64,000 nucleotides of DNA from Mesostigma viride (lineage: Eukaryota; Streptophyta; Mesostigmatophyceae; Mesostigmatales; Mesostigmataceae), in NCBI GenBank assembly GCA_009746045.1, contig RPFO01000130.1, positions 2,460,125-2,524,124 on the forward strand. The letters run 5' to 3'. Shown here in pieces: positions 471 to 23,375 of the stretch (positions within the stretch are counted from its first letter, which is position 1; each line of letters begins with the position of its first letter). Made by a program: the position numbers and the translations under genes. The notes under the pieces are model-generated. The model had not been told where the DNA came from. It made no database searches and saw only the letters and a program-made list of their open reading frames with translations.

Positions 471-595
471 CGGCGCGGCGCGGTCATGCCAACATTTGGG
501 TGGCACGAGGCACGCGAGTGGCTGATGTTTGCTCGAGGAAAATCGGGGTGCGGGGGTGGGGATCGCGTTTGCGTGGGTGCGTGCTCGCGTGCAGC

Positions 596-2002
596 GGACA
601 AAGGAACGCGCAGCCGGGCCACTTTCGTGTCGATGTAGTGGAACGTGGGCCGGAGGGCCAGCGTATCACGAAAGAGCTGCCGCTGGGGAGCAAGGACTAC
701 ATGGCGCTGGCTTTCCCGGCCATCCATTCGGAGGGCAAGGGGGGGTGGTCGTACAGCTACGATGGGAAGAGCAAGCGCAAGCAGGAGGTCAAGCTGCAGG
801 ACGAGATCAAGTGCCGGCTGTTCTCCGAGTGGCGGCTCAAGAACAAGGGCGCTTTCGGGCAGCTATACCCGCTGCACGGGAACTCCGCCAAGGAGGACCA
901 GACCATCACCTTCCTGCGGGGGAAGCAGCGTGAGAAGCACCAGAGGCGGTTGGCGACGTGGGCCGAGCTGAACGACAACCTCAAGGTATTGGACGACCTG
1001 AAGACGATGGGGGTGTACAGCGAGAAGGACTGGAGGAAGTTCACCAAGGCGAACGCCAAGGACCTGCCGGATGAGCTGCGCTCGGGGCTCACCATGCAGC
1101 TGCCGTCCGGCTCAGGGATGGCCAACCGCTTCGTGCTGCACAACATCCAGAACAACATCGCCGCCATCGCCGAGGACGGGGCCCCCTCGGTGTTCGCCAC
1201 GTTCACGTGCAATCCGATGTGGCCAGAAATCCAGGACAACCTGCCGCCGGGAACCGACGTGTACCAACACCCCGAGTTTGCCAACCGCTCGTTTCACATC
1301 CGGCTGGCCGCGTTCATCAAGGGCATCGAGGACGGCGTGATGGGGGCCAAGCCGCTGTACTTGATCTATGTGATCGAGTACCAGACGCGCGGGCTGCCCC
1401 ACGCGCACGTCATCTTCCGGCTCCCCGAGCCCTTCCACCCGACCACCGCCAACGGGCGCATCGACGAGCTCGCGTGGGCGGAGCTGCCGCCAGAGGACGT
1501 CGCGGCGGGGCGTCTGCGCGAGCTCGTGCTCCAGCACATGGTCCACAACCACACCGCTGGCGCCAAGTGCATGAAGAACCGGCGGCACGAGGTGGCGATG
1601 CCCCCGCGGAAAGCGCTGCGCGCGGCGGACATCGCGGCCGCGCGCGACTCGTTCGACCTCGACTCGGCCTCCTCGTCCTCAGACGACGAGCCGTTCACCC
1701 CGTGGCAGCCGCGCACGTACAAGTGCGCCAAGCGCTTCCCCGAGCCCTACGCCAAGCGCACGTTCGAAGACGTGCGGGGCTTCATCCACCCGCGGAGACG
1801 GCACACGTGCAGGCTGAACCAGTGGATCGTCCCGTACAACGCATGGGCCACGTTGCGGTTCGAGGCCCACATCAACTTTGTGGTGACCTCGCACACGCAC
1901 GTCGTCTTCTACCTGAACAAATATATAAACAAGGGGCAGGAGTACGCGGAGATCAAGCTGGGCGAGTGCGACGAGGCCGACGAGTACCTGCGGGGGCGCC
2001 GG
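596..2002 (+). CDS. Helitron Rep exon 1: Helitron_like_N and HUH nuclease domain
   Basis: This exon encodes the rolling-circle initiator that nicks and joins DNA during Helitron transposition. A segment like the Helitron N-domain starts near 660 (FPAIHSEGKGGW, then a basic stretch). The block FTCNPMWPEI is at 1203-1232. The HUH metal-binding motif GLPHAHV has its two His codons at 1400-1408. A Cys/His region includes KCAKRFPEPY near 1728. The two-tyrosine motif YLNKYINKG has Tyr codons at 1910 and 1922. Between the Cys/His parts lies a Ser/Asp-rich insertion (about 1615-1695). The exon ends at 2002 before a GTGAGT donor; reading on would stop after three codons. The start is uncertain: the frame is open back into the 40-bp repeats, and a CAG acceptor at 592-594 is a plausible exon start, so an upstream exon may lie outside the window. 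Confidence 0.85.
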
Positions 2003-2202
2003 GTGAGTGGCTGAAGGCGTGCACGTGGGTGCAAGGGCGTCTGCTTGTGTGCAAAGGGGAGGGAGTAGAGCGTGTGCAGCTTCCTTTTTTCCTTGCGGCG
2101 TGTTTTTCTCGTGATTGCGCTCCCGTTTAGTCCGTTGCTGACCTTTGCGCGCCCACGTCTTCTATGGGCATGTCTCTATGTGTGCGTGCGCGATGGCGGC
2201 AG

Positions 2203-2499
2203 GTGAGCGGCACGCAGGCGGACTGGGTCGGCCGCGGCTTCCACGAGCGGGCGATGCGCCCCGGCTGCGAGATGCTGCCGGTGCACCTGGACGGGCAGCA
2301 CAAGATCACCTACAAGGAGGGATGCAAGCGGTCGCTGGAGAACGCGGTGGAGCAGAAGCAGGACACGCCGCTGACGATGTACTTTGATCGGCCCGGGGAC
2401 GAGGACGTGCCCGGGATGAACGCGCTCAAGTACTCCGACTTCCACAAGAAGTTCGTCATGCGCAAGTTCATGGGAGACAAGCGAACCTCCACCGTATCG
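2203..2499 (+). CDS. Helitron Rep exon 2
   Basis: Ninety-nine codons between a CAG acceptor (2200-2202) and a GTGAGT donor (2500), phase 0 on both sides. The translation contains LPVHLDGQHKITYKEG, the conserved 'LPVHLxGQ' block that follows the Rep two-Tyr motif in Helitron proteins, then TMYFDRPGDED and a basic end, FHKKFVMRKFMGDKR. It therefore forms the link between Rep and helicase. Splicing to exon 1 gives a continuous product across the junction (GRR then VSGTQADWVGR). Confidence 0.8.
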
Positions 2500-2529
2500 G
2501 TGAGTGCGCTGCCACTGCCTATCGTCAGG

Positions 2530-4500
2530 GGTGGGCCACGATGATGGACTAGTGTGGGGCATGCCTCCTCCCAAGTTTCAGCCCAATCCAAGCTCGTTTG
2601 TATGTTTTAGGACCCTGGCCCACCTCTAACGGTGGGCACATGCTCGCGCGCGCTAGGGACCATGGCAACCCCTGGCAATGTCCACCCCCCCAAACGATGG
2701 ACCTGCGAGCCCCCACTTTGCACACATGATGGACTAGTATGGGGGAAGCCTCCTCCCAAGTTTCAGCCCAATCCAAGCTCGTTTGCATATTTTAGGACCC
2801 TGGCCCACCCCTAACGGTGGGCACGTGCTAGCGCGCGCTAGGGACCATCGCACCCCCTGGCAATGTCCACCCGCCGAAACGATGGACCTGCGAGCCCCCA
2901 CTTTGCACACATGATGGACTAGTATGGGGGAAGCCTCCTCCCAAGTTTCAGCCCAATCCAAGCTCGTTTGCATATTTTAGGACCCTGGCCCACCCCTAAC
3001 GGTGGGCACGTGCTAGCGCGCGCTAGGGACCATCGCACCCCCTGGCCATGTCCACCCGCCGAAACGATGGACCTGCGAGCCCCCACTTTGCCCACATGAT
3101 GGACTAGTGTGGGGCATGCCTCCTCTCAAGTTTCAGCCCAATCCAAGCTCGTTTGCATATTTTAGGACCATGGCCCACCTCTAAGGGTGGGCACGTGCTA
3201 GCGTGCTCTAGGGACCATCGCACCCCCTGGCAATGCCACCCCCCCAAACGATGGACCTGCAGCCCCCACTTTGAGCACATGATGGACTAGTGTGGGGCAT
3301 GCCTCCTCCCAAGTTTCAGCCCAATCCAAGCTCGTTTGTATGTTTTAGGACCCTGGCCCACCTCTAACGGTGGGCACGTGCTAGCGCCCTCTAGGGACCA
3401 TCGCACCGCCTGGCCATGTCCACCCCCCCGAAACGATGGACCTGCGAGCCCCCACTTTGCACACATGATGGACTAGTGTGGGGCATGCCTCCTCTCAAGT
3501 TTCAGCCCAATCCAAGCTCGTTTGCATATCTTAGGACCCTGGCCCGTCTCTAACGGTGGGCACGTGCTAGCGCGCGCTAGGGACCATGGCAACCCCTGGC
3601 AATGTCCACCCCCCCCAAACGATGGACCTGCGAGCCCCCACTTTGCACACATGATGGACTAGTATGGGGGAAGCCTCCTCCCAAGTTTCAGCCCAATCCA
3701 AGCTCGTTTGCATATTGTAGGACCCTGGCCCACCCCTAACGGTGGGCACGTGCTAGCGCGCGTAAGGGACCATGGCACCCCCTGGCAATGTCCACCCCCC
3801 CAAACGATAGACCTGCGAGCCCCCACTTTGCCCACATGATGGACTAGGGGGGGGGAAGCCTCCTCCCAAGTTTCAGGCCAATCCAAGCTCGTTTGCATGT
3901 TTTAGGACCCTGGCCCACCCCTAACGGTGGGCACGTGCTGTCGGCGCGCTAGGGACCATGGCACCACCTGGCCATGTCCACCCCCCCAAACGATGGACCT
4001 GCGAGCCCCCACTTTGCACACATGATGGACTAGTGTGGGGCATGCCTCCTCCCAAGTTTCAGCCCAATCCAAGCTCGTTTGCATATTTTAGGACCCTGGC
4101 CCACCCCTAACGGTGGGCACGTGCTAGCGCGCGCTAGGGACCATCGCACCGCCTGGCCATGTCCACCCCCCCAAACGATGGACCTGCGAGCCCCCACTTT
4201 GCACACATGATGGACTAGTGTGGGGCATGCCTCCTCCCAAGTTTCAGCCCAATCCAACCTCGTTTGCATATTTTAGGACCCTGGCCCACCCCTAACGGTG
4301 GGCACGTGCTAGCGCGCGCTAGGGACCATGGCACCCCTGGCCATGTCCACTCCCCCAAACGATAGACCTGCGAGCCCCCACTTTGCACACATGATGGACT
4401 AGTGTGGGGCATGCCTCCTCCCAAGTTTCAGGCCAATCCGAGCTCGTTTGCATGTTTTAGGACCATGGCCCACCCCTAACGGTAGGCAGCCTTCCCCCAC
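2530..4500. repeat. 185-bp minisatellite filling Helitron intron 2
   Basis: About 10.6 head-to-tail units of roughly 185 bp. Each contains CATGATGGACTAGT, a CAAGTTTCAGCCCAATCC block, TTTTAGGACCCTGG, CCTAACGGTGGGCACGTG and, in several units, the 14-bp palindrome CTAGCGCGCGCTAG. Units differ by scattered substitutions and small indels, so it is not a very recent expansion. The array lies wholly between the donor at 2500 and the acceptor at 4632. Reverse-strand open frames of 79 codons recur once per unit but follow the repeat period and have no other support. Confidence 0.95.
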
Positions 4501-4632
4501 ACTAGCGTTATTGCATGGCGCGCAAGGGACCATGGCCCCCTCTGGCATGCGTTATTGCATGGGTTGTCTTGGTGCGCGTTTTTTCTCACCTTTCGCTATT
4601 GGGATGCTTCATGCGTCGGTGGGGTCCTGCAG

Positions 4633-4680
4633 CTGAAATGGCAAGCTCCCGAGCGCGCGTTGAGGGACGTCAACAACGAG
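4633..4680 (+). CDS. Helitron exon 3, 16 codons
   Basis: A micro-exon (LKWQAPERALRDVNNE) between a CCTGCAG acceptor and a GTGCGT donor, phase 0. It is inferred because it keeps the frame between exon 2 and exon 4, and its position matches the short 'W...' segment before the 'GR(L/M)..V.P' block of Helitron proteins. There is no independent evidence beyond splice sites, frame and composition. Confidence 0.55.
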
Positions 4681-4795
4681 GTGCGTCATTGTCGAATTGT
4701 CGCCATTGTTTTCCATTCGTTTGATGTAGCGTGCTTGGGGAGGGGGCGTGTGCTAACCGACCGCGGCGGCTGCGATCTTGTGCTGGCGCTCGCAG

Positions 4796-6571
4796 GTGAT
4801 CGTGTGCGAGGGCCACACGGCGCGATGGTGGCTCATGCCGCGCGTGACGCGCGTCTTCACGCGCATGTACGACCCCGACCTGCGCAACCCCGAGCTCTTC
4901 TACCTGCGCGTGCTGCTGGAGAAGCGCGCCGCGCACTCGTTCGAGGAGCTGCGCACCGTGGGCGGCGTGTTGCTCAGTAACGAGATGGCGTGCCGGCGGC
5001 TGGGCCTGCTCGAGGACGACGACGCGGCGGTGGAGAGCATGCGCATCGCCGCGCGCCGGCTGGAGACGCCGTACGCGATGCGGCGGCTGTTCGTCATCCT
5101 CGTGCTGCAGAAGCTGAGCACGATGAGCGCGCTGTGGCGGTTCAAGGAGGAGATGATGAAGGACCACCTGTTCTACGCGTACGAGGACGTGCACGGCGGG
5201 GTGGGCCGCAGAGCCAAGCAGCCCATCACGCTCGAGGACCGCGAGGCCGCGCTCGCGCGCACGCTCGCCTACCTGGACAAGCGGCTGTCGGCCTACGGCT
5301 ACGACGTCTGGGAGCTGGAGCCCGTGCTCAAGTGCCGCCGCGACAGGGGCGAGGACGTGTGCCGGCGCAAGCGCAAGCACGACGACGACGACGACGCGAA
5401 CATCCTCGCGCCCGACCTGAGCAAGTTCTCTCTCGTGCAGCGCGAGGCGTACGAGACCTTGCTGCTGGCGATCAAGGGGCTCAGCCCGGACCGCCGGCTG
5501 TTCGTGGACGGGCCCGCGGGCACGGGCAAGACCATGGTCATCAACGCGGCGATGCAGCAGTCCGCGCGCGACGGCTTCAAGGTGGTGCCGATGGCGTTCA
5601 CGGGCGTCGCGTCGCTGCAGATGTGGGGCGGCCACACGTCGCATCACGCGTGCGGGTTCCCGCTCGAGCTCGACCTCGAGTACGGCTGCCGCGTGACGCG
5701 CAACTCCGCCAGGGGGCGCACGCTGTTGGAGGCGCACGCGCTCGTCGTCGACGAGATCGGCATGATGAACGTGGAGCTGATCCATCTCTTGCACGAGCTG
5801 CTGGTCGAGCTCACCTTTGTCAAGGAGCCGTTCGGCGGCAAGGTCGTCATCTTCGCCGGCGACTTCCGGCAGGTGGCGCCCGTCGTCAAGGGCGCCAGCG
5901 AGCTGGCGACGGCTGACGCCAGCGCGGTGCGGTCGCCGCAGTGGGTGGGCGTGCACCGGCTGCCGCTCGAGTTCAACTACCGCGCGCGCGAGGACCCGGA
6001 GTACGCGCAGTTTGTCGCCGACGTCGGCATGGACAACGTCGCGTACGAGGCGGTGATCGACGACCGCACGCACCAGGAGGTGGCGATGATCCCGCTGCGC
6101 ATGGTGCAGCCGGTCAAGGACGAGGACGAGCTGATCGCGCACACGTTCCCCAACGTCAACGACGCGAACGCGTGCATGCGGTCCTCGATCGTCGCGGTGA
6201 CCAACAAGGCGTGCGACGACATCAACGCGGCTGTCCTGGCCAAGCTGGAGAACCAGGAGCGCAGCACGTTCAGCCACGACCGCGTCGCCAAGTCGGGGGA
6301 GAGGGTCTCCATGAGGACCCTCAACTGCGCGCGTCAAGACGGCGTCCCCGACCACGAGTTCAAGTGGAAGGTGGGCGCCGTGGCCATGATCACGCGCAAC
6401 CTGTCCCACAAGGACAGGTTGCAGAATGGGACGCGCGTCGAGCTCGTAGACGAGCAAGACGGCGCGTTCCTCGTGAAGACGCCGGACGGGGAGCTGCACG
6501 CGATCCCGCGGATCGCGTTCAGCATCGACGCCGACAAGTTCAAGATCCTCAGGATGGCCTACCCTTTCAAG
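4796..6571 (+). CDS. Helitron PIF1-family helicase exon (main helicase core)
   Basis: This exon encodes the superfamily 1B helicase half of the transposase, which unwinds the strand being displaced. It follows a CAG acceptor (4793-4795) and ends at a GTACGT donor (6572), phase 0. The first 150 residues carry the block FYLRVLLEKRAAHSFEELRT typical of the Rep-helicase bridge. Walker A is DGPAGTGKT (5507-5533), Walker B is VVDEIGMMN (about 5743-5769), and the PIF1 motif VVIFAGDFRQVAPV is at 5845-5886. An Asp-rich patch precedes the core near 5380-5400. The remaining helicase motifs are in the next exon. A nearly identical copy lies at 20,687-22,394. The long antisense open frame over this exon is a by-product of GC-rich codon use. 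Confidence 0.92.
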
Positions 6572-6744
6572 GTACGTGGGCGCGCGCAGGGAGGGGCGGG
6601 GTGAGCGCCATGCGGTGTCGTTGCTTGCGATGTCGGCTCGCGCCTTGCGATCGTATGACTTGCGGTGGCCTTGGCTGAATGCTCCCTCGCTTTCCTCGAT
6701 GTCTTGCTTGCTTACGTCCGCGCGTTTGTATGGTCGTCGCGCAG

Positions 6745-7389
6745 CTGGCGTATGCGGTCACGATCAACAAGTGCCAGGGGCAGACGCTGGAACGCGTCGG
6801 CCTCTGGCTCAAGCACGACGTGTTCGCGCACGGCCAGCTTTACACGGCGCTCACGCGCGTGGGCGCGAGGGGGCACATCCGGGGCTTGTTCGGCTACGAG
6901 TTCGACGGCGTCGGCTACAGCAGGAACATCGTCAACTGGACGATCTTGCAGGGCGCGGGCATCAACATGCGCAACAAGGCGGAGGACCGCGTCAAGGCGC
7001 GCATCCGGAGGCGCCAGCGAGGCCGGCGCCGCGCACAGGCATCCGACGACTGGGAGCTGCCGGACCCGATGAGCGGCGAGCCCCAGGACAACGAGTACGA
7101 CAACCCCGACGACGAGGACACGTGGGAGCTCGGGGACGACGAGGCGTGCGCGGAGGCCGACCAGGCGTGCGCCGATGACGCGGCCAAGAGGCGGTGGAGG
7201 CAGGTCGTCGAGGAGCCACTGTGGGCGGACTTCATGCTGGAGAGCGACGGCGAACACGATCGCGACATCCTGCGGCAGGACGGCTTGATGTCCGACGGCG
7301 AGCCTGAGGAGCCCGAGCTGCTTTTGTACGAGGGTGGCGACAGCGACGAAAACGAGGGCGTGCCCGACCTAGGCGACTGTGAGGATATG
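6745..7389 (+). CDS. Helitron helicase C-terminal exon with acidic tail
   Basis: Starts after CGCGCAG (6744) and ends at a GTAAGC donor (7390), phase 0. [15 protein letters not shown] and [11 protein letters not shown] are the final PIF1/RecD-type helicase motifs, so exons 4 and 5 together make a complete helicase. After a basic Arg-rich stretch (about 7000-7035), the last 110 residues are strongly acidic (runs such as [14 protein letters not shown]). The tail is not part of the helicase fold; it may be a linker to the following exons or an interaction segment. Copied almost exactly at 22,568-23,212. Confidence 0.9.
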
Positions 7390-7429
7390 GTAAGCATATG
7401 CTGACTGTGAGGATATGGTAAGCATATGC
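7374..7429 (+). other. 28-bp tandem duplication of the exon 5 splice donor
   Basis: The sequence GACTGTGAGGATATGGTAAG followed by CATATGC appears twice in direct tandem (units 7374-7401 and 7402-7429), so two identical GTAAGC donors lie 28 bp apart. The first keeps the frame. Use of the second would include an in-frame TGA at 7402-7404. The same duplication is present in the second helicase copy (23,197-23,252), so it predates that copying event. Confidence 0.9.
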
Positions 7430-7557
7430 CGCCGCCGTCGTCACGAGATGAAAGCCTCCCTTGGCTGCACCGAGCGTGCGCGCCCGCTGCTGACGCATCT
7501 CGTGCGCGTGTGACCTCGTGCGTGGCCGTGTGCGTGCCGCGTTGTTTTGGCGCTCAG

Positions 7558-8077
7558 GGGCTGGACGAGTACGGCGACCCGCTTGACGACGACCGCTGCG
7601 ACGCGCCGTCGGCGCCCGACGACTTTTGCGAGGAGGTGAGTGCTGCTGGCCCATCTCGCGTGCTAGCGCCCTGTTCCGCGTCCACTCGTCCTCCTTTTTG
7701 TTGCTCACATTCGCCTCCGCGATCGCTTGCCGACCCTCACAGGACAACGACTCCGGGCTGGGCGCCGCCCTCGAGGACTTTCGCGACTGCGTGGGTCAAT
7801 TCGACGACTACCCCTACGTACGTTTCCCGGTGCCGCTGTCTTTCTTGACGCGCGTTTCCTACCTCCGCCTACCTTTGCTGCGCGCGCCACGCGTCCAGGG
7901 ACGCTGAGCCGATCGCCGTTCGATGCGGTTGCGTGTCGTGCGATTTTTCCCTTGCAGGACGATGACGACTCGGACCACTCGTACGCGGATATCCGATCGG
8001 GCCCTGAAATCGGGCACGTGCCCGTGGGAGCGAAATGCCCTCCGGATTTCACGATGGAGGAGCGCGACGCGATAGCG
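7558..8077 (+). CDS. Three small acidic linker exons (7558-7635, 7743-7817, 7958-8077)
   Basis: Exons of 26, 25 and 40 codons, each between an AG acceptor and a GT donor (GTGAGT, GTACGT, GTGGGT) and each phase 0. They are rich in Asp (for example GLDEYGDPLDDDRCD and DDDDSDHSYADIR), continuing the acidic tail of exon 5. No known domain is seen. If the last donor at 8078 is not used, translation stops after three more codons at 8087-8089, giving a Rep-Hel protein without the USP-like module. If it is used, the frame runs into the exon at 8997. The exons are absent from the second copy, whose homology stops at the acceptor of the first of them. Confidence 0.6.
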
Positions 8078-8149
8078 GTGGGTCTTTGAGCTTGCAGCGG
8101 TGACTCTTCCACTTCCCTTGCTAGCCGTTGCCAGCGCGCTCTCGGTGCA

Positions 8150-8880
8150 GGGCACGTGCTAGCGCGCGCGAGGCACCATGGCACCGCCTGGCCATGTCCA
8201 CCCCCCCAAACGATGGACCTGCGAGCCCCCACTTTGCACACATGATGGACTAGTGTGGGGCATGCCTCCTCCCAAGTTTCAGCCTGATCCAAGCTCGTTT
8301 GCATATTGTAGGACCCTGGCCCACCTCTAAGGGTGGGCACGTGCTAGCGCGCGCTAGGGACCATCGCACCCCCTGGCCATGTCCACCCCCCCAAACGATA
8401 GACCTGCGAGCCCCCACTTTGCACACATGATGGACTAGTATGGGGGAAGCCTCCTCCCAAGTTTCAGCCCAATCCGAGCTCATTTGCATGTTTTAGGACC
8501 ATGGCTCACCCCTAAGGGTGGGCACGTGCTAGCGCACGCAAGGCACCATGGCACCGCCTGGCCATGTCCACCGCCCCCAAACGATGGACCTGCGAGCCCC
8601 CACTTTGCACACATGATGGACTAGTGTGGGGCATGCCTCCTCCCAAGTTTCAGCCTGATCCAAGCTCGTTTGCATATTTAGGACCATGACCCACCCTAAG
8701 GATGGGCACGTGCTAGCGCGCAAGGGACCATGGCACCCCCTGGCAATGCGCCATCCCCAAAACGATTGACCTGCAAGGCCCCACTTTGCCCACATGATGG
8801 ACTATTGTGGGGCAAGCCTGCTCCCAAGTTTCAGCCCAATCCAAGCTGGCCCACCCCTAACGGTAGGCAGCCTTCCGCCA
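8150..8880. repeat. 185-bp minisatellite in Helitron intron 8, same family as intron 2
   Basis: About four units homologous to the intron 2 array (CATGATGGACTAGT recurs at about 185-bp spacing). They are followed by the same 3' segment that closes the intron 2 array (GGTAGGCAGCCTTC, then ACTAGCGTTATTGCATGGCG, matching 4480-4550 and 8858-8935). The two introns therefore share both the repeat and its downstream edge. Confidence 0.93.
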
Positions 8881-8996
8881 CACTAGCGTTATTGCATGGC
8901 GCGCAAGGTACCATGGCCCCCTCTGGCATGCGTTTGCTGACCTCGCCTGCCCACTCGCGATCGCGTTCACGGTGCTTGTCGATTGCGCGGTCGCAG

Positions 8997-11180
8997 GCCG
9001 CGATGGTGTTTTCGTCGGACGAGGAGGAGGACGTTGGAGACAACGATGCCTCAAAGGATTCGGAGCGCGGTCCCGCTGACGGGCGCGAGACGACCGTCGA
9101 CGCCGCGCCGGGCGGGCCTGTCCCGGCGGTGGCGGGTCAGGTGCCGGCTGGAACGCACGGGGACGCCGCACCGCACGCCGCTGCGGCCGCCGGCGTGCCG
9201 GGTGACCCCATCCTTGGGACAGCGGACCCTGCAGACCCAACGCTCGTGGGGACGGCGCGCGAGCATGGCCGGGACGTCGAGGGTCTCCTGACACACGTGC
9301 GCGGCGTCCTCGCGGCGTGCCGAGCGCTGCTGCCGCGACTGCAAGGGGTCCCACTCGGCGCGCCGCCTCGCCGCGACCCCGTGGAGGCGCTGTACGCGAA
9401 GCTGTGCGCGTCGCGGGCGCGCGGCGAGCTGGGCGGGCAGGACCGGCTGCGCTTTGACGGGGGCAGGGACGGCCTGGCCGGGTTCGGGGCGGCCTCGCTT
9501 GCGCCCGCCGAGTTCGCGATGACGTTGCTCCTGTGGTCGCGCGAGCACGTTGGCGGCTCGCCGCCGCTGCTGGTGAGCGACGAGTGCGAGCAGCTGCGCG
9601 GGCTGTTGGGCGGGGACGGCGACGTCGCGGACGTGGTGCGCCGGTTGCTGGCGCACGCGGATGCGCACAAGTTGGTCGAGCGCACACCGTGCTGCGTCGA
9701 CGCGCGCTGCGAGGCCGCGGCAGACGAGAGCGCACTCGACTTGGTCGACCTCGGTGCGGGCGAGGGGACGCTCGCGGAACGCATGGCGGCGCTGCTGAGG
9801 CGCGGGCGCCCGGATGGCGCCTGCGTGGATTGCGGCGAGCCGGGCGCCAGCCGTGGGCGCCACCTCGATGGCGGGTTCCCTGCGAGCGTGCTGTTCCACG
9901 TCGCGGGCGGGGCGGACTTGCGCGCGTGCGGGGGGGGCTGCCTGCCGTCGTCGCTTGACGTGCGCGTCGTGGACGGCCCTCGTGGGCAAGAGGTCGCCGC
10001 GGTCGCGCGCTTGCGTGGCTTTGTGCAGGTAAGGGCCGGCAGCGGACTTGTTTTCTGCCACGCCGTCGACGGCGAGGCCGGTCGATTCCGAGTCGTCGAC
10101 GCGCTCACGGGCGGCGTCACTGTGGAGACGCTGCGGCTGGATGACCTGGAGCAGCCCGTACTTGTGTGCATGTACGCCGTGACAGCGGCCGAGGACCCGG
10201 CGACAACGCGCGAGTCGTGGCCCTCGCAGGCAGCCACCTCTCCCGGGGCTGCCGGCGAGCACGCTGCCACTGCAGAAAGGAGGCGCGAGGAGGACGCCAC
10301 GGCCCCTGCTGCCGCTCAGGTGGCTCCTTGCCAGGAGCGGACGGGTTGCGGCGCTTGCGCCATGTTCGATCGGCTGATGGCGTCGCACGGCCACGTCCGG
10401 CTGTGCGCCGACCGCACGCGCACGTTTTCCTGGCGCGACAACTGCTGCCACATGAACGCGGCGCTCGAGTTCGTGTGCGAGCTGCTGCTGCTGCTGCAGA
10501 CGCCCGCCGTGTCGGGCTTGCGATTCCTGACGTGCTGCGCCGCGGGAGAACCCCACGACTGGGGCTGCGAGCTGGGGCTGGAGCTGCTGCGCTGCGTGCT
10601 GGGGGTCGCGCAAGGGCGGGGCCGAGAAATGGACGCGCGGCGCGACGCGGTGCTGCGCGTGCTCGACAGGCACTTGCCCGGGCGAGTGGCCGCCGACCCG
10701 GACGACGCGTATGACAACATGAGGATGCTGATGCAGCACGTGGCGGCCGGCGGCCCGCGCTGCGGCGAGCGCACCTGCGAGCTCGGCGTCAGGTCGGACG
10801 ACGGCCCGGTGGAGCTGCCGCTGTTGGTCATCGACTGCCGTGACGAGTGGGACGTCGCGACGCGCCTCGCGTCGGTGTGCCGAGAGTACGCGCCGGACGT
10901 TCCCGTGGCTTGCGGTCTGTGCCAGCAAAAGGACTGCGTCGCGCTGCGCCACTACGACGAGCTGCCGCGCGTGCTGCCCTTCGGCCGCCTGAACCAGCTG
11001 CCGCCCGGCGCCTATCGCGGGGCGGGCCTGCCAGAGACGATGCAGCTGACCCTGTCGGTCGGGCCGGCGCGGCGGCAGGTGCGCGTGACCGCGCGGCTGC
11101 GGGCCGTGGTCGAGCACACGGGCGGCCACTTTGTGCTGCTGCGCCGTCGACGAGCGGGCGCGCGGTCATTAAATTTATAA
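8997..11180 (+). CDS. USP-like (peptidase C19-like) tandem-domain exon, putative C-terminus of the Helitron protein
   Basis: Follows a TCGCAG acceptor (8996) and is in frame with the acidic exons. After an acidic, Ala/Pro-rich leader come two USP-like folds. The first (about 9370-10,180) has two Cys clusters in finger-like positions and ends in a palm-like strand pattern (LRGFVQV...VDALTGG), but has no recognisable Cys box. The second (about 10,360-11,150) has DNCCHMNAALEF, matching the USP Cys box with the likely nucleophile at 10,446-10,448, and LRAVVEHTGGHFVLL, matching the His box with His at 11,127-11,129. Family knowledge: such enzymes cleave ubiquitin from proteins. Activity here is inference. 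It ends soon after the His box, without the usual final strand, so it may be truncated. It could also be a separate gene starting at the Met codon 9003. Confidence 0.7.
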   Translation, partial: AAMVFSSDEEEDVGDNDASKDSERGPADGRETTVDAAPGGPVPAVAGQVPAGTHGDAAPHAAAAAGVPGDPILGTADPADPTLVGTAREHGRDVEGLLTHVRGVLAACRALLPRLQGVPLGAPPRRDPVEALYAKLCASRARGELGGQDRLRFDGGRDGLAGFGAASLAPAEFAMTLLLWSREHVGGSPPLLVSDECEQLRGLLGGDGDVADVVRRLLAHADAHKLVERTPCCVDARCEAAADESALDLVDLGAGEGTLAERMAALLRRGRPDGACVDCGEPGASRGRHLDGGFPASVLFHVAGGADLRACGGGCLPSSLDVRVVDGPRGQEVAAVARLRGFVQVRAGSGLVFCHAVDGEAGRFRVVDALTGGVTVETLRLDDLEQPVLVCMYAVTAAEDPATTRESWPSQAATSPGAAGEHAATAERRREEDATAPAAAQVAPCQERTGCGACAMFDRLMASHGHVRLCADRTRTFSWRDNCCHMNAALEFVCELLLLLQTPAVSGLRFLTCCAAGEPHDWGCELGLELLRCVLGVAQGRGREMDARRDAVLRVLDRHLPGRVAADPDDAYDNMRMLMQHVAAGGPRCGERTCELGVRSDDGPVELPLLVIDCRDEWDVATRLASVCREYAPDVPVACGLCQQKDCVALRHYDELPRVLPFGRLNQLPPGAYRGAGLPETMQLTLSVGPARRQVRVTARLRAVVEHTGGHFVLLRRRRAGARSLNL

Positions 11181-11245
11181 CACATGTGTATGATATATAT
11201 TAATGTAAAAATATATATATGATATTATTTTATGTTTTACATGTA
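11163..11245. other. Short AT-rich spacer between the two USP-like blocks
   Basis: About 80 bp of almost pure A/T with several ATATAT runs, embedded in DNA that is strongly GC-rich on both sides. It contains the stop codon of the first USP block and the first Met codons of the second. It may be a promoter-like spacer or the scar of the duplication. No convincing splice pair removes it. Confidence 0.7.
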
Positions 11246-12446
11246 TGCGACGCCGGCGCTCGACGAGATGGACTGCGACGACGGCGTCGCCGCGCACACG
11301 CTCGTCGGGGACAGCGAGTCGGCCGTCGTGCGGGAGTGTTGGCAGGACTTCGTGCACCTGCAGGACGCGTGCGAGGGCCTCGCGCTGCGGCAGCGCAGCG
11401 ACGTGGCGTTCAAGGGGCCGCTGTCCGCCCCGCTGGAGCTGCTGTACGCGGTGCTGTGCCGCTGCCAGGCGCAGAGCGCCGCGCGCGACCTGCGCTGCGT
11501 CACCTTCGACCGGGCGGGGCAGGTGGGCGGCGCAGGGGACGTGGGCGCGCGGTTTGCGCTGGCGCTGCTCATGGCCGTGTGGCAGCGCGCGCAGGGCACG
11601 CAGCAGCACGTGGACGCGGCGTCCGGCGAGCTGGAACGCGCGCTGGCGGCGTTCGAGCGGCGCGGCGACGACGGGTCGCTGCTGTTCTCGCTGGAGCTCA
11701 TGCTGTCACACGTCGACGCCCCGCGGTTGGTCGAGCGCGGTCCGTGGTGCGTCGCGTGCGGCCAGCCTGTCGGCACGGTCGTCGAGACCGAGCTGCCCTT
11801 GGTCGACTTGGCGCGCACGACGGGCGGCCTCACGCATCTCATCGCGGCGGCCGTCAAGGAGCGCGTGTCCACGCGCGAGTGCGCGGCGTGCGGGTTCGCC
11901 TGTTGCCAGAGCTTGCGCAGACTCCACGGGCGCTTGCCCGCGTGCCTCGTGTTCCGCGCTGCCGACGAAGCGGTCTTGAGCGCGGGCAGGGTCCCGCCGG
12001 ACCGCTTCTCAGACTGGCTTGCCCTCGGCGACGACCACGAAATCGAGGTGGACCTGCGGCTCTGCGGCTTCGTCCAGCGCACGTCCGGCGACCGCCTCTC
12101 TTTCTGGCAGCGCGCCTGCGACACGCCCGACGGCTGGTGGGTCAGCGACGGCACGGGACCGGCGCGGCGGCGGCGCGACCGGGACTTGGCGGGCGGGGCG
12201 GCCACGGAGATGGTGTACGCGTACGAGGTGGCGGCCGCGGCCGGCGCCGCCTACTATGACGAGGACCTCGGCGACGCGGCCGATGCCCCTTGGACGCGCC
12301 GGCGCCACGGGAAGCAGAGCGCGCGCCGCGTTCGCCCGTCGTCGTCGAGGGCGATGGCCAGGACGAGCGTGCCTCGCACGCAGCGCCCGTCCGACCCATC
12401 GATGTGTCGCGCGATGACGACGTCGCCATCGACACGGAGTCCCTGA
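11232..12446 (+). CDS. Second USP-like block, N-terminal (non-catalytic) half; frame breaks near its end
   Basis: Paralogous to the first half of the 8997-11,180 protein. LELLYAVLCRC matches VEALYAKLCAS, HVDAPRLVERGPWCVACG matches HADAHKLVERTPCC, and LCGFVQRTSGD matches LRGFVQVRAGS. Two CxxC pairs (CVACG, CAACG) sit where USP fingers bind zinc. No Cys nucleophile box is visible, and the His position is lost (RLSFWQRAC), so it should be catalytically dead. The biologically plausible frame ends around 12,260-12,300. The remaining residues to the stop at 12,446 are low-complexity Arg/Ser and look out of frame. The start is either the Met at 11,232 or the one at 11,268 (MDCDDG). Confidence 0.6.
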   Translation: MFYMYATPALDEMDCDDGVAAHTLVGDSESAVVRECWQDFVHLQDACEGLALRQRSDVAFKGPLSAPLELLYAVLCRCQAQSAARDLRCVTFDRAGQVGGAGDVGARFALALLMAVWQRAQGTQQHVDAASGELERALAAFERRGDDGSLLFSLELMLSHVDAPRLVERGPWCVACGQPVGTVVETELPLVDLARTTGGLTHLIAAAVKERVSTRECAACGFACCQSLRRLHGRLPACLVFRAADEAVLSAGRVPPDRFSDWLALGDDHEIEVDLRLCGFVQRTSGDRLSFWQRACDTPDGWWVSDGTGPARRRRDRDLAGGAATEMVYAYEVAAAAGAAYYDEDLGDAADAPWTRRRHGKQSARRVRPSSSRAMARTSVPRTQRPSDPSMCRAMTTSPSTRSP

Positions 12447-13504
12447 CGCGACCGCTGGCAGCGGCGCCGCACGACGACGACTGTGTGAGGACGGGCGAGG
12501 GGCAGGACACCACGCCATTCGCGTTCCGACCGCGCAGGGCCGCGCAGCAGCAGCCGCTGGTGGCGGACTGCCATCGGTTCGTCACCTTCTTGCAGCAGAA
12601 CGGCGGCGCGACTCTGCCTCCGAACCCGCGCGGCTCGTACAAGTGGGGCGAGAACAGCTGCCCCACCGACGCGGCGCTGGGGCTGCTGTACTTGGCGCTG
12701 GCGGTCACCAAGGAAGGTCTGCGCCTGCTGACGTGCCACCGCGCGGACGAGTCGCACGGCGACGCGTGCGCGCTCGGGCTGCTGCTGCTGTTCTGCATGC
12801 ACGCGTCCAGGACCGGCAACGTGTCCATCATGACGCGCGCGAGGGAGGCGGTGCGGCCGCGGCTGGACGCGTCGCTGGGGAGGGCCCGCGGTGCGATGGA
12901 CAGCGTGACATCTACCGCCGCGGGCCTGCTCCGGTACGTGGACGGCGTCGTTCCTCGCCAGGGCGACTTCGCCTGCCGGGCGCCGTTCCCGGTCGACGGT
13001 CGGCTCGTCGACGTCAACAAGTTCACGCTCAGCCCGTGGGAAGCCGACCGCATGGACATCGACGAGCGCATCGCGGCCGCGTGCACGCAGGAGCGCATGG
13101 GCGCGCGCCCGCCGTGCCACCACTGCGGGTCGCCCCGCTGCGTGCCTCGACGCTACTTTGACCGAGTGCCGCCCGTGCTCGTCTTTCTGAACGTCTCCAG
13201 CCACCTCCCGCTGATCAACTACGTCGGGAGCGGGCTGCCCAAGACGCTGGAGATGACCCTCTACATCGGCCGCGCGTGCGTGCAAGTGCGCGTCGCCTTG
13301 CGGCTGTGCGGGGCGGTCGAGTACCACCCAGCGCACTTTGTCGTCTTGCGGCCGGTGGACTTGGACGCGGGCACGTGGGAAGAAGTGGACGACGGCCCGG
13401 GGCTGTGCGCCCCTGTCATCCGCATCCACCCGCGCATGAACCTCGTCGCCCTGGCCACCAAGACGACGGCGTGCGCGTACTCCGTGACGGTGCTCGATCG
13501 GTGA
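12260..13504 (+). CDS. Second USP-like block, catalytic half, in a shifted frame
   Basis: Open from a stop at 12,257-12,259 to 13,504, with no ATG near its beginning, so it depends on a frameshift or a tiny intron from the preceding frame. After an acidic stretch (VSRDDDVAIDTES) comes WGENSCPTDAALGLL, the USP Cys-box equivalent with Cys at 12,659-12,661. LLTCHRADESHGDACALGLL aligns with the same segment of the first block. A CxxC pair (CHHCG) and VRVALRLCGAVEYHPAHFVVL follow; the latter is the His-box equivalent with His at 13,334-13,336. Unlike the first block it continues for about 50 residues past the His box to AYSVTVL, a plausible final strand. It is either a broken gene or two exons with an unrecognised junction. 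Confidence 0.6.
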   Translation, partial: RGPRRRGRCPLDAPAPREAERAPRSPVVVEGDGQDERASHAAPVRPIDVSRDDDVAIDTESLTRPLAAAPHDDDCVRTGEGQDTTPFAFRPRRAAQQQPLVADCHRFVTFLQQNGGATLPPNPRGSYKWGENSCPTDAALGLLYLALAVTKEGLRLLTCHRADESHGDACALGLLLLFCMHASRTGNVSIMTRAREAVRPRLDASLGRARGAMDSVTSTAAGLLRYVDGVVPRQGDFACRAPFPVDGRLVDVNKFTLSPWEADRMDIDERIAAACTQERMGARPPCHHCGSPRCVPRRYFDRVPPVLVFLNVSSHLPLINYVGSGLPKTLEMTLYIGRACVQVRVALRLCGAVEYHPAHFVVLRPVDLDAGTWEEVDDGPGLCAPVIRIHPRMNLVALATKTTACAYSVTVLDR

Positions 13505-13509
13505 ACACC

Positions 13510-13533
13510 GGGGGGAGGCGGGGGGGGGGGGGG
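13510..13533. repeat. Poly-G tract just after the second USP stop
   Basis: G-runs of 5 and 14 interrupted by AGGC immediately 3' of the stop at 13,502-13,504. This is a potential G-quadruplex former. Confidence 0.8.
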
Positions 13534-14055
13534 AGGAGCGTGGATGCAACTCGTCACGCGGGAGTTGCGTGCAGGGGGGGCCAAGTCACCTGCCGTGCCC
13601 GGCATCTAGCGCGGATCGCGACGGTTTGTATGGCTACACGGCTGACACGTTCGCACGTTCAAGAGCACGCAGCACGGTGAGTTCATCCTGTTGCGACCGT
13701 CCCAATCACCTTATAGTGCGTGAAGGTGCAGCCTGCCTTGCGCAGACTAGAACGCAACCGCATTGCACCGCGCTCCAGCTCCATTCCAGGTACGTGCCCG
13801 TGTCCCAGTATCATAGTCCTCGCACTGACGCTGTGTGCAGCAGCTTGCCCTTCTACTCGATGCTAACGCGCGGTGTGCTCAGCTTGCCCTTCTACTCGAT
13901 TGCCGGTGCTGACCTCCCGTGGGGCAGGGTGAAGGCACATTGCAATCGCCGTCGGGGACGAGCTCGCGTGGATGTAACTCGGGGGAACGCAACCACATTG
14001 CAGCGCGCTTGATTCCAGGTACGTCCCGGTGTCCCGGTATCACATTCCCTCACAC
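13534..14055. other. Intergenic, no gene; contains two diverged direct duplications
   Basis: No supported reading frame. CAGCTTGCCCTTCTACTCGA occurs twice (about 13,838 and 13,879), and a related copy is near 15,768. A segment with CCAGGTACGTGCCCGTGTCC (near 13,785) recurs at about 14,013. These link the stretch to the repeat-rich region that follows. Confidence 0.6.
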
Positions 14056-14059
14056 TCCA

Positions 14060-14515
14060 GACCCACGCACCTTGCCAGCCCCCACACCAACCCACGCACG
14101 CATGGCAGCCCCCCCCCACACCCGCACACGCATGCCAGCCACCCCCCATTCCCACGCACACATGCTAGCCCCCCCACACACCCGCGCAACCATGCGAGCC
14201 CCCCACACCTTGGCAGCCCCCACACCGATAGGCCCCCATTCCCACGCACGCATGGCAGCCCCCCACACACCCGGCGCATGCGTGCCAGCCCGCCACCATT
14301 CCCACACACGCATGCTAGCCCCCGCACACACACACGCACGCATGCCAGCCCCACCCCCAAGCCACCCATGTATGGCAGCTCCTGCCCACACCCACGCACA
14401 TTCCCAGCGCCAACACAAACCCACGCACGCATACCAGCCTCCTTCCCCCACCACGCATGCATGGCAGCTCCACCCCACACCCACGCACGCATGCCTGCCC
14501 CCCCCACACCCACCC
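14060..14515. repeat. CA-rich GCATGC minisatellite, plus orientation
   Basis: Irregular 27-32 bp units built from CCCACGCACGCATGCCAGCC with CCCCCCACA linkers. Open frames across it (His/Ala/Pro-rich) exist in several frames on both strands because the repeat lacks stop codons. The same family recurs at 14,797, 16,165, 24,340, 41,388, 45,305, 55,254 and 59,220. Confidence 0.92.
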
Positions 14516-14529
14516 GCTGCCTGCTAGCA

Positions 14530-14796
14530 AGTACGTTGTGCTTGCATGTGGCTGCCTGCCGCATCCCCCTACCCACGCCACTAGGCTCACGGCTCACGGT
14601 CCATGTCTCATGCCCCATTTCCCCTGCCAGCCTGCCAGCTTAGCAGTAGCAGCACCGCTTGCTGGTCTCCCCCTAATGACGTAACATGTTCACACGTGGC
14701 TGCCTGTCCTTCATGACCCATGCCCCACGTCGCAAGCCTCATCGCTTGTGGCTCATACTCCATGCTTGCCTATCCACACCCTCGCACCACGCCGGC
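14530..14796. repeat. Dispersed low-complexity repeat with CATGTGGCTGCC and CCCATGCCCC blocks
   Basis: Contains GCATGTGGCTGCCTGCCGCA and CTCATGCCCC segments that recur around 15,590-15,660 and 24,835-25,240, and in reverse orientation around 37,450-37,520 and 37,800-38,540. No coding signal. Confidence 0.6.
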
Positions 14797-15455
14797 CCCC
14801 ACGGCAACCCACGCACGCATGCAAGCCCCCCCACACCCACGCACCACGCACGCATGGCAGCCACCCCACGAACCCAGGCACGCATGCCAGCCCCCCCTAA
14901 ACCCATGCATGCGTGGCAGCTCCCCACCACACGCACGAATGCATGCCGCCCCCCCACACACGCATGGCAGCCCGCCCCGCCCCACATGCCTGCATGCCAA
15001 CTCCGCCCCACACACACGCATGCATGCCAGGACCCCCGCCAACCCACGCACGCATGGCATCCACGCATGCCAGCTCCCCCCGACACCCGTCACCAACGTA
15101 CCCCCCACAAACCCACGCATGCATGCCAGCCACCCCACAAACCCATGCACGCATGCCAGCCACCCCACACCCACGCACGGATGCTAGCCACCCCACGAGC
15201 CCACGCATGCATGCCAGCCACCCGCCACATGCACGCATGCGTGCCAGCCCCCCCCCACATGCGCATGCATGCCAGCCACCCCCCACAACCACCCCCCACA
15301 CCCGCGCACGCATGGCAGCCCACCCCCAAACCCAAGCACGCATGCCAGCCACCCCCACACCCACGCACGCATGCCAGCTCCGCCCCACACCCACGGATGC
15401 ATGCCAGGACCCCGCCAACCCACGCACGCATGGCATCCACGCATGCCGACTCCCC
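14797..15455. repeat. CA-rich GCATGC minisatellite, second array
   Basis: Same unit family as 14,060-14,515, about 22 units. It includes an internal longer-range duplication: the segment with CCAACCCACGCACGCATGGC followed by ATCCACGCATGCC occurs near 15,038 and again near 15,415. Confidence 0.9.
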
Positions 15456-16164
15456 CCGACACTGACGCACCTTATCGCTCCTCATCACTTGCCTAAGTCC
15501 CCGCTCGCTGCTTTGCACCCTCAACTGGTTTATCACGCTTTCCCGCAGTACCCCTGATTGACGGCTTGCCCCTATTCACGTGCATGTGGCTGCCCGCCTG
15601 ATTGCCGCATCCCCCAACCCCATGCCCCAAGGCTCATGGCTCATGCCAGCATGTCATGTGCCCCTTGCCGCTCGCCCGCCAGCCTACTCGTGCAGCATAC
15701 CCTTGCAACATCCCACCTACTACAGTGTCATCGACTTTCAATGCATGTTATATCGCAGTCTGCTCAGGTTGCCCTTTTACTCCATTGCCTGTGCTGACCC
15801 CTCCCCCACACAGAAATGGCGACAGCCGAGGTCGCTATGCCAGCCATGCCCACTATGGCCGCTGCATGTGATGGTTGTCACGGAGAAATCAATTAATACA
15901 AAATAAATTCCCATACAATTATGGCCATACAATTGTGGATGTGCAAACGATAGCAAATCTCAAATCTGGCTGTCGCAGCGCGGATCATTTTATTACAATT
16001 TATTATTCTGGTTCATGGAAGAAATTGTTCTGGCAAGTATTCTGGTCATAAAATAAATTTCATGTGTTTGCACAGATAGCATAATCATGTCTAACATTAT
16101 TGTAGTGTGCTCGTCAAAACCCCAAGACAAGTAAATGGCAGGATGCTTGATTTTGTTGTGTGGG
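15456..16164. other. Intergenic, GC-rich then AT-rich, no gene
   Basis: 15,540-15,700 is a copy of the CATGTGGCTGCC/CCATGCCCCAAGGCTCATGG dispersed repeat. 15,880-16,110 is AT-rich with no frame worth reporting. The segment CGCTGCATGTGATGG near 15,860 resembles 38,733-38,747, suggesting that both belong to one diverged interspersed family. Confidence 0.5.
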
Positions 16165-16490
16165 GGGCTCGCATACTTCCGTGGGTTTGTGGGCTGGCTG
16201 GCATGCATGCGTGCCTGTGGGGGTGGGCTAACATGCATGAGTGGGTGTGGGGGGGAGTGCCATGCATGCGTGGCTGGCACGTGTGCGTGGGTTCATGGGG
16301 TGGCTGCCATGCGTGCGTGGGTGTGAAGTGGGCTAGCATGCGTACATGGCTGTGGGGGGTGGCTGGCATGCATAAGCGGTTGTGGGGTGAGGCTGCCATG
16401 CGTGCATGGGTGTGGGGGGTGGCTGGCATGCGTGCGTGGCTGTGGGGGGTGGCTGGCATGGATAAGTGGTTGTGGGGTGGGGCAGGTGAC
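16165..16490. repeat. GCATGC minisatellite in inverted orientation
   Basis: Units read GGCTGGCATGCATGCGTGGG on the plus strand, the reverse complement of the arrays at 14,060-15,455. The two orientations flank 15,456-16,164. Confidence 0.9.
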
Positions 16491-19689: not shown

Positions 19690-19855
19690 GTGAGTTGCGA
19701 AGTTGAGCTTTGTTTTACATAATGCTTCAGTATCACGTGGGAGGTAGGCAGCGGCATACGGGATACACGCACCGACTCTTCAGGTTCTCACATCTTTTGC
19801 GTTGCATGTTAAACACGTTCTCCCACATTCGGGTACGACCGCCCGGTGCCTGCAG

Positions 19856-20636
19856 TCACGCACTGGTTATCCAGCATCCAAGCGAACTGGTCAAACTGCG
19901 CCTTCCACCAGATGCCGCCTTATATCCAACGCAGGTCAACTGGAACTACACTGCATTCAACGCGCTGCCTGAACGCACGCGAGGATACGGGAACCAGGGT
20001 AGAACCTACGTGGACATCGTCGGCATCATCCACGTCCGTTACAAAAACAAGTTCAGGAAGGTTCCGCACCAACGCGTCGTCCTCACGGACCTGGAGGGGG
20101 GCTCCATCCCGATGCACATTTTTGACAACGCAGTGAATGTTCTCAACGACATCAGCCCTGGCGAGGTCCGCAGCCTCTCGGCCAAACGTGCACGCGCACA
20201 AAAGTGGAACGGCCACTGGGCATTCACAATCGGTGACAACACGCTTCTCGCCTTGGACAGCGACGACATTGCCGCGCAGGAGCTCCGTGAAAAGGCCAGG
20301 AAGAAGGCATTCGCCGGCGTCGTGTTCACTGACGAAGCGCCGGTCATGGACGCGTCAGAGGTCATCACAAGGGCCACTATGACAACGACCGAGAAGCCGG
20401 ACTCATTCAACTGCGTGGTACACGGTCTCATGCGTCCCCACCCAAGATACCCGAACGGCGAGTCAGGGATCTACTACAACGCTTGCGTCAACCCCAGGCA
20501 GCAAGACAACAAGGCCGCCAAGCAGACCAGGAACAGCAGCGCGGGGCAGTCAAGCCGGAAGAGCAACAACACAATGCAGTGCCGCCGCGCGCTGCTGCCC
20601 GATGGCACCTGTCCAGTGTGTGGCGCAAACGTGCCC
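19856..20636 (+). CDS. RPA70-like protein, exon 2 (OB folds and zinc ribbon)
   Basis: Follows a CTGCAG acceptor. It contains a second OB-like segment (TYVDIVGIIHVRYKNKF ... RVVLTDLEGGSIPMHIFDN), a basic stretch (SAKRARAQKW), and a region matching the RPA70 DBD-C zinc ribbon: YYNACVNPRQQ, later MQCRRALLPDGTCPVCGANV, with Cys positions 'C...C...CPVC' as in the family. The first Cys pair is spread by a Ser/Asn-rich insertion. At 20,637 there is a GTAAGG donor, so the exon may end there. Reading on without splicing, the frame passes through 17 codons directly into the PIF1 helicase at 20,687. Confidence 0.78.
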
Positions 20637-20686
20637 GTAAGGAGGATGTACTTGTTTAACATCGTGGTCTTGTTTAACATCCTTGG

Positions 20687-22394: not shown

Positions 22395-22567
22395 GTACGT
22401 GGGCGCGCGCAGGGAGGGGCGGGGTGAGCGCCATGCGGTGTCGTTGCTTGCGGTGTCGGCTCACGCCTTGCGATCGTATGACTTGCGGTGGCCTTGGCTG
22501 AATGCTCCCTTGCTTTCCTCGATGTCTTGCTTGCTTACGTCCGCGCGTTTGTATGGTCGTCGCGCAG

Positions 22568-23212
22568 CTGGCGTATGCGGTCACGATCAACAAGTGCCAG
22601 GGGCAGACGCTGGAACGCGTCGGCCTCTGGCTCAAGCACGACGTGTTCGCGCACGGCCAGCTTTACACGGCGCTCACGCGCGTGGGCGCGAGGGGGCACA
22701 TCCGGGGCTTGTTCGGCTACGAGTTCGATGGCGTTGGCTACAGCAGGAACATCGTCAACTGGACGATCCTGCAGGGCGCGGGCATCAACATGCGCAACAA
22801 GGCAGAGGACCGCGTCAAGGCGCGCATCCGGAGGCGCCAGCGAGGCCGGCGCCGCGCACAGGCATCCGACGACTGGGAGCTGCCGGACCCGATGAGCGGC
22901 GAGCCCCAGGACAACGAGTACGACAACCCCGACGACGAGGACACGTGGGAGCTCGGGGACGACGAGGCGTGTGCGGAGGCCGACCAGGCGTGCGCCGATG
23001 ACGTGGCCAAGAGGCGGTGGAGGCAGGTCGTCGAGGAGCCACTGTGGGCGGACTTCATGCTGGAGAGCGACGGAGAACAGGATCGCGACATCCTGCGGCA
23101 GGACGGCTTGATGTCCGACGGCGAGCCTGAGGAGCCCGAGCTGCTGTTGTACGAGGGCGGCGACAGCGACGAAAACGAGGGCGTGCCCGACCTAGGTGAC
23201 TGTGAGGATATG
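22568..23212 (+). CDS. Helicase C-terminal exon, second copy
   Basis: Copy of 6745-7389 with the [15 protein letters not shown] motif, Arg-rich stretch and acidic tail intact; a few conservative changes (one Ala to Val, one His to Gln). The duplicated donor (23,197-23,252) is kept, but the downstream acceptor of copy 1 is replaced, so splicing must end differently here. Confidence 0.82.
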
Positions 23213-23375
23213 GTAAGCATATGCTGACTGTGAGGATATGGTAAGCATATGCCGCCGCCGTCGTCACGAGATGAAAGCCTCCCTTGGCTGCACCGAGCGT
23301 GCGTGCCCGCTGCTGACGCATCTCGTGCGCGTGTGACCTCGTGCGTGGACGTGTGCGTGCCGCGTTGTTTTGGCG

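Follow-up and report, generated by a model that had tools for sequence, protein, structure and literature searches.

Rolling-circle transposons may carry cysteine proteases of the deubiquitinase class. Helinoto, an icefish Helitron2 attributed to Capriglione in 2014, is said to have three deubiquitinase-like domains. Proteases of the OTU type have been described for Helentrons (PMC4067079), and domains of the viral tegument-like deubiquitinase (VTD) type for animal Helitrons and Helentrons (Erven et al. 2022, PMC9741609); the authors of the latter paper suggest that Helitron VTDs may protect proteins required for transposition from degradation by the proteasome. Here we analyse a stretch of 64,000 nucleotides from the streptophyte Mesostigma viride (assembly GCA_009746045.1, contig RPFO01000130.1, positions 2,460,125 to 2,524,124 of the forward strand), referred to as the window. 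It contains a Helitron in which the region coding for Rep and helicase (RepHel) is followed by an array of protease-like domains. This gene probably codes for a Helitron transposase with an alternating array of catalytic domains and pseudo-enzymes of USP fold, the catalytic ones being predicted isopeptidases. Helitrons with OTU and VTD proteases are already known; USP-like domains in alternation with pseudo-enzymes are a new variant, and no USP-type domain in a Helitron was seen among the listed results of searches in the open-access literature on Helitrons and deubiquitinases or cysteine proteases. The locus resembles Helinoto in having several deubiquitinase-like domains in one Helitron, but the host of Helinoto is a fish.

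Four related domains and the class of the catalytic-type ones

The C-terminal array downstream of RepHel consists of four homologous domains of about 320 residues in the order A1-B1-A2-B2 (Table 1). The element of the window is assigned to family 1, and other Helitron families of the genome are numbered 2 to 4. B1 contains a Cys box, SWRDNCCHMNAALEF (starting at 10428), as well as a His box, VVEHTGGHFVLL. The initial annotation had correctly reported these boxes for the exon starting at 8997 and had proposed tandem USP-like folds. A second Cys/His set, homologous to the first, does exist, but there are four domains and not two, with a homologous domain lacking the Cys in front of each Cys/His domain.

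Identity by blastp is 31% between A1 and A2 (E 2e-15) and 32% between B1 and B2 (E 7e-29), and the two types also match each other, with E-values of 7e-7 (A1/B2), 1e-5 (A1/B1), 6e-5 (A2/B2), and 0.014 (A2/B1). A profile of five A domains can be aligned to a profile of seven B domains over 286 columns (hhalign, Prob 98.7, E 1.9e-16). When the B profile is used with hmmsearch, all five A domains are found at E <= 3.7e-5, while the best of 250 shuffled sequences reaches E 0.74. In a tree with 12 rows, the split between A and B domains has values of 100/100 and the four B1 domains group together at 81/79, with no resolved position for B2. Neither a Cys box nor the His is found in four of the five A domains; the family-3 A domain has kept the His but has no Cys, which was judged by eye from a separate comparison as the Cys-box region of the family-3 A1 row is cut off in the 12-row alignment. 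The A domains are relatives of the B domains and have probably lost the Cys and mostly also the His (pseudo-USPs).

The copy in the window is broken. An AT-rich stretch of 80 nt replaces 119 nt of GC-rich coding sequence that are present in all five siblings aligned there, and this filler is either a repair scar or an assembly artefact. The frame from 8997 stops inside it, at 11180, and the third catalytic residue of B1 is absent, while RWEVVD is found in all four siblings displayed at this site (five were looked at). A2 and B2 are in different frames, as is also the case in copy C1a. Thus, the region 8997-13504, which had been annotated as one unit, is not one frame in this copy. In copy C1b, A1-B1-A2-B2 are encoded in one open frame of 1609 residues, the first ~95 of which are still intron, and on C1448 (family 3) all four domains are in one open frame of 1654 residues within the stretch fetched, or 1709 residues by genome-wide search.

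Nine B-type domains, seven from Helitrons and two standalone, were chosen for a comparison of residues. There are 15 invariant columns, which include N-x-C, His, Trp, and Asp, and the general layout is N-x-C-x-x-[DN], followed by a His, usually with an aromatic residue after it, and by W-x-x-x-D. The order Cys-His-Asp, with the Asp after the His and near the Trp, is found in all nine. The distance from Cys to His is 222-230 residues (249 in one domain), that from His to Asp is 17-18 (22 in one), and that from Trp to Asp is always 4. Numbered within the B2 domain, the three residues are Cys47, His272, and Asp290. For comparison, the catalytic residues of USP7 are Cys223, His464, and Asp481, with a spacing of 17 from His to Asp. 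The residue directly after the His, which we take to be the aromatic gatekeeper of deubiquitinases, is aromatic in eight of the nine domains. The Cys boxes ENSCHLDA, NSCWVDAIL, and QGNSCFLDAA resemble those of CYLD and USPL1 as read from PDB chains. Features shared with USPs of family C19 (USP7, CYLD) and with USPL1 (C98), in part drawn from general knowledge of USPs, are N-[ST]-C-x-x-[DN], a Cys-rich middle, a strand of V-P-x-V-L type, H-[FYW], W-x-x-x-D, and a closing aromatic strand. Differences are that the two CxxC pairs of many USPs are not both conserved and that none of the seven aligned Helitron B domains has the Asn at C-5 which is usual in USPs.

Sequence-profile similarity to the USPs is not detectable: in Pfam scans of the domains no family exceeded its cut-off and UCH/USP was not listed at E up to 10, and in PDB sequence searches no USP chain was matched. 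Divergence may exceed the reach of the UCH/USP profile. The AlphaFold model of B2 is weak (pLDDT 46.5) and its best Foldseek E-value is 0.03. For the model of B1 (pLDDT 42.4), which in the window lacks the last strands, no USP catalytic chain is among the best 50 Foldseek rows or among 50 VIA rows; one VIA row is chain A, with 1033 residues, of a USP1-UAF1-FANCD2/FANCI entry, which is probably not USP1. When PDB chains are ranked by E-value against the B2 model, USP7 comes first, followed by USPL1 and again USP7, and USP chains recur in its VIA rows. Considering the order and spacing of the residues together with this weak AlphaFold/Foldseek result, a USP (C19)-like fold is our best reading of the B domains. 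In the comparisons with USP and OTU folds that had been proposed at the outset, no sequence profile reached either class, and matches to USP chains were obtained with the B2 model.

Several other candidates were rejected. Sub-threshold Pfam names (methyltransferase 32, herpes helicase-primase, DUF5983, C71, and others, E 0.057-0.3) are not common to the members, and PDB sequence matches to VP40, Syn-F4, PCNA, and beta-galactosidase concern helical or chance stretches. Searches of PHROGs and NCBIfam gave nothing better than E 0.07, and a viral-contig pattern scan matched three stretches, none of which was confirmed.

The alternative that fares best, although we consider it unlikely, is that the B domains are papain-like but not deubiquitinases, being either proteases for SUMO or another ubiquitin-like protein (UBL), as is USPL1, or polyprotein-processing cysteine proteases. 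The second Foldseek match, USPL1, is a SUMO isopeptidase, and the missing Asn at C-5 as well as the missing USP profile match point in the same direction, but an aromatic residue following the His, together with the W-x-x-x-D hairpin, is in keeping with isopeptidases of the deubiquitinase type. Within the USP-like reading, the target of the B domains may be SUMO or NEDD8 rather than ubiquitin.

Connection of the array with the transposase

RepHel coding sequence occupies positions 551-8077 of the window, which lies within contig C1513 of the profile scan; the start of the gene is to the left of the window, and 551 is an arbitrary in-frame point. The HUH Rep domain is matched by PF14214 at 1043-1414 (C1513:2461167-2461538) with 87.4 bits (cut-off 28.9), and further towards the C-terminus the same gene codes for a PIF1-type helicase, matched by PF05970 over 4757-6601 (E 2.5e-36). 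The motifs LPHAH and YLNKYINK in the Rep exon and the Walker A motif GPAGTGKT in the helicase were seen by eye. It is quite likely that the locus represents the C-terminal half of the transposase from a Helitron lineage of autonomous type. An open reading frame (ORF) with a zinc-like CPKC...CC motif is located to the left of the window (L009:5240-6607) and, as judged by eye, may be an N-terminal RepHel exon.

A search for exon chains, with donor and acceptor ranges set around the expected junctions and with two donors and one acceptor offered for the last intron, resulted in 30 stop-free GT-AG chains, all of which use the junction 8077|8997. Of these, the one with the best donors consists of the exons listed in Table 1 and has eight introns, all in phase 0. 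The phase-0 GT-AG chain from Rep-Hel into the 8997 exon, as initially annotated, is confirmed in this way. In family 2 (three copies, which are close kin), the last exon on the RepHel side ends with GCG|GTGAGT and the next one follows 134 nt later at CCGCAG|CGCGAGGCGGTGTTT. The junction in family 1, GCG|GTGGGT ... GTCGCAG|GCCGCGATGGTGTTT, is at the same point and also in phase 0. The fusion intron has 919 nt and contains a 185-nt satellite in the window, as compared to 134 nt without the satellite in family 2, and in both families reading continues through the junction without a stop. The sibling families strongly support that a tandem Cys-His protease-like module is fused to the Helitron transposase. 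This fusion is not due to chance, and genomic comparison indicates that its structure is in frame. From the initial proposal of a fused C19-like module, the fusion is backed by the sibling families and the residue order fits C19/C98, but a profile match is missing and the B2 model is poor.

It seems improbable to us that the array is a separate cargo gene which is located downstream of RepHel, starts at its own ATG at 9003, and remains outside the transposase polypeptide. In family 1 this ATG is found six bases into the exon in the favourable context GCCGCGATGG, and PMC4067079 describes the OTU proteases of Helentrons in additional ORFs. However, family 2, whose short phase-0 intron is at the corresponding place, has no ATG before the conserved VFSSDE, and the open frame across the junction in both families is also contrary to a separate gene. 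A separate start is unlikely because family 2 is without an ATG where family 1 has one.

There is much less probability still that the domains are divergent VTD or OTU proteases instead of USP-like ones. The Cys box of OTU proteases is D-G-x-C, with the catalytic Asp before the Cys; this box is not conserved in the nine B-type domains, where C-3 is occupied by D, E, A, R, G, or K. The Helentron OTU proteases share with the array that they are deubiquitinase-class cysteine proteases on a rolling-circle element (PMC4067079). For VTDs, PMC9741609, which also names VTD and OTU as the classes known in Helitrons, describes cysteine deubiquitinase domains within the RepHel frame, sometimes two per element, and inactive copies, many of them in insect genes, which are similarities to our array. 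According to the same paper, VTDs have an invariant Asp-x-His with a mirrored active site, whereas an Asp or Asn follows the His in typical deubiquitinases. In all nine B-type domains, H-2 is P, G, or Y and the Asp is found 17-22 residues after the His (mostly 17-18), as in the typical enzymes. VTDs also lack the aromatic gatekeeper, whereas the residue after the His is aromatic in eight of the nine B-type domains. VTDs are further reported in Helentrons with an AP endonuclease (PMC9741609), while no AP endonuclease was noticed here. The OTU and VTD readings were ruled out because of the order of the catalytic residues and their motifs.

Distribution, selection and exchange of the terminal domain

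The genome (440 Mb in 2243 contigs) was inspected for the array at 15 further Helitron loci, namely 11 sibling Rep loci, families C777 and C180, a family-3 copy on C1448, and C1616; the short Rep loci L001-L008 reach too little downstream and were left out of the count. The array is found in 12 of the 15 (in one of them to A1 only), two end too early, and at one, a Helitron of another type, none was seen. Nine of the 11 siblings have the array after RepHel (C1 twice, C682, C1413, C1424, C3, C1324, C1673, and C244). On C244 it is seen to A1, where the contig ends, and at C1448:124274 and C481 the contig ends before the array position. Of the more distant families, C777 (49% identity in Rep) and C180 (43%) have the array as well, as has the further family-3 copy, with its Rep at C1448:18601; in family 4 (C180) there are two B domains and no A was found. 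The different Helitron on C1616 (L030) has no array match, and its downstream part reads N. The array occurs in four Helitron families of this genome, and the search for the same fusion in other Helitrons, which had been suggested initially, was therefore successful. A genome-wide search with B2, in which 122 of 180 candidates were scored, gave at least 98 matches at E <= 1e-3, with fragments counted.

Four loci (L034-L037, on C1480, C1579, C1, and C2133), together with other 24-28% matches of the genome-wide search, have standalone open frames of ~450-560 residues with one related domain each. They represent two near-identical pairs at distant loci, none of which is near the Rep places listed. 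One type has the Cys box NQGNSCFLDAA.

Between family 1 (window) and family 2 (C1673), dN/dS is 0.18 for Rep, 0.27 for the helicase, and 0.52 for the second helicase exon. For the array, the values are 0.38 for A1 (Fisher p 1.7e-10) and 0.43 for B1 (Fisher p 8.9e-6), while those for A2 (0.60) and B2 (0.77) are from an earlier run with less certain orthologue pairs. A1 and B1 are under purifying selection between the two families, and this includes A1 as a pseudo-domain. Conservation and dN/dS rule out that the array is a stray ORF. The weakest of the alternatives, with hardly any probability, is that the array goes back to a single capture of a host gene fragment which has since been drifting passively: gene capture is ordinary for Helitrons and standalone relatives exist in the same genome, but the array is present in families with Rep only 43-49% identical, the catalytic residues are invariant in the nine domains compared, and A1 and B1 are under purifying selection.

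Identity between the family-3 copy on C1448 and family 1 is 39% in A1, 34% in B1, and 49% in A2, but 93.6% in B2. Family 2, though closer to family 1 in Rep, has only 38-39% in B2. Per bin of 100 columns, nucleotide identity between C1448 and the window is 41-81% up to 12238, then 92-100% up to ~13536, and 43% thereafter. In the genome-wide search, B2 has 93-94% identity at six or more loci, one of which (C1448) was inspected in detail. By this comparison the B2 module with its linker has been exchanged between families 1 and 3, apparently by recombination or conversion among these Helitrons.

We propose that the transposase is a polyprotein in which Rep and the PIF1 helicase are followed by an array of USP-fold cysteine isopeptidase domains, with B domains alternating with A domains. 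The B domains would release ubiquitin or a ubiquitin-like protein that is attached to the side chains of lysines, while the A domains may bind ubiquitin or place the substrate without cutting. Tethered to Rep-helicase, the array could remove ubiquitin or SUMO either from the transposase itself or from proteins present where replication takes place, and the transposase might thereby escape proteasomal or chromatin-based control. Faster evolution than in RepHel and the swapping of modules would fit antagonism with the host. We give an even chance to the wider proposal that this Helitron lineage independently recruited a USP-type isopeptidase, duplicated it to an array of pseudo-enzymes and enzymes, and swaps the terminal catalytic module between families, as would be expected of counter-defence in a conflict over host ubiquitin or SUMO. 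If true, this would be the third deubiquitinase class, after OTU and VTD, in rolling-circle transposition. A third isopeptidase class at the same position would imply that rolling-circle transposition repeatedly requires control of ubiquitin or UBL tags, as opposed to one accident of capture. The alternation of pseudo-USPs and USPs and the sharply bounded B2 exchange provide a concrete and testable system in which the targets of the host's attack and the response of the element can be studied.

Further features of the locus

Table 1 Features of the Helitron locus in the window (positions of the window).
Feature	Position	Strand	Evidence
RepHel exon, HUH Rep domain	551..2002	+	PF14214, open frame
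RepHel exon	2203..2499	+	in-frame GT-AG model
RepHel exon, downstream of satellite-filled intron	4633..4680	+	in-frame GT-AG model, satellite detection
PIF1-type helicase exon	4796..6571	+	PF05970, exon chain
Helicase C-terminal exon and acidic tail	6745..7389	+	exon chain; dN/dS 0.52 vs family 2
Acidic linker exon	7558..7635	+	exon chain
Acidic linker exon	7743..7817	+	exon chain
Last RepHel-side exon, end GCG|GTGGGT, phase 0	7958..8077	+	exon chain; family-2 counterpart ends GCG|GTGAGT
Intron between RepHel and protease parts, 919 nt, with 185-nt satellite	8078..8996	+	sibling comparison
Exon with A1 and B1; stop 11178-11180 in window copy	8997..11177	+	exon chain, blastp
A1, predicted pseudo-protease, without Cys box and His	9297..10196	+	homology to B domains (blastp, hhalign, hmmsearch); dN/dS 0.38
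B1, catalytic-type; Cys 10446-10448, His 11127-11129; C-terminal end with Asp lost in window copy	10344..11165	+	blastp, siblings; dN/dS 0.43
AT-rich stretch, 80 nt, frame-breaking	11167..11246	+	sibling alignment (119 nt there)
A2, second predicted pseudo-protease domain	11310..12245	+	31% to A1, E 2e-15
Exchanged module, linker and B2 to just past stop	12239..13537	+	92-100% per-bin identity in family 3
B2, complete catalytic-type; Cys 12659-12661, His 13334-13336, Asp 13388-13390, stop 13502-13504	12521..13504	+	blastp, domain alignment, genome-wide relatives, fold search

Helitrons have TC...CTRR ends with a 3′ hairpin and insert between A and T. Similarity among the copies runs past 15.2 kb and into minisatellites. 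Four similar blocks of C-rich minisatellites with a unit of ~30 nt are located at ~41.4-42.7, 45.3-46.6, 55.2-56.6, and 59.2-60.5 kb. Such arrays also occupy 14057-15440 and, in inverted orientation, both 16157-16486 and 24362-24756. The 185-nt satellite occurs in two introns of the Helitron (2541-4488 and 8150-8847), and translated traces of it were seen by eye upstream of the family-3 array on C777. A second helicase segment (20686-23375) is 99.1% identical to 4863-7552, introns included. It is in frame with an ORF which by eye resembles RPA but has no match in Pfam, forming a frame of 906 residues (19707-22427) without the protease array.

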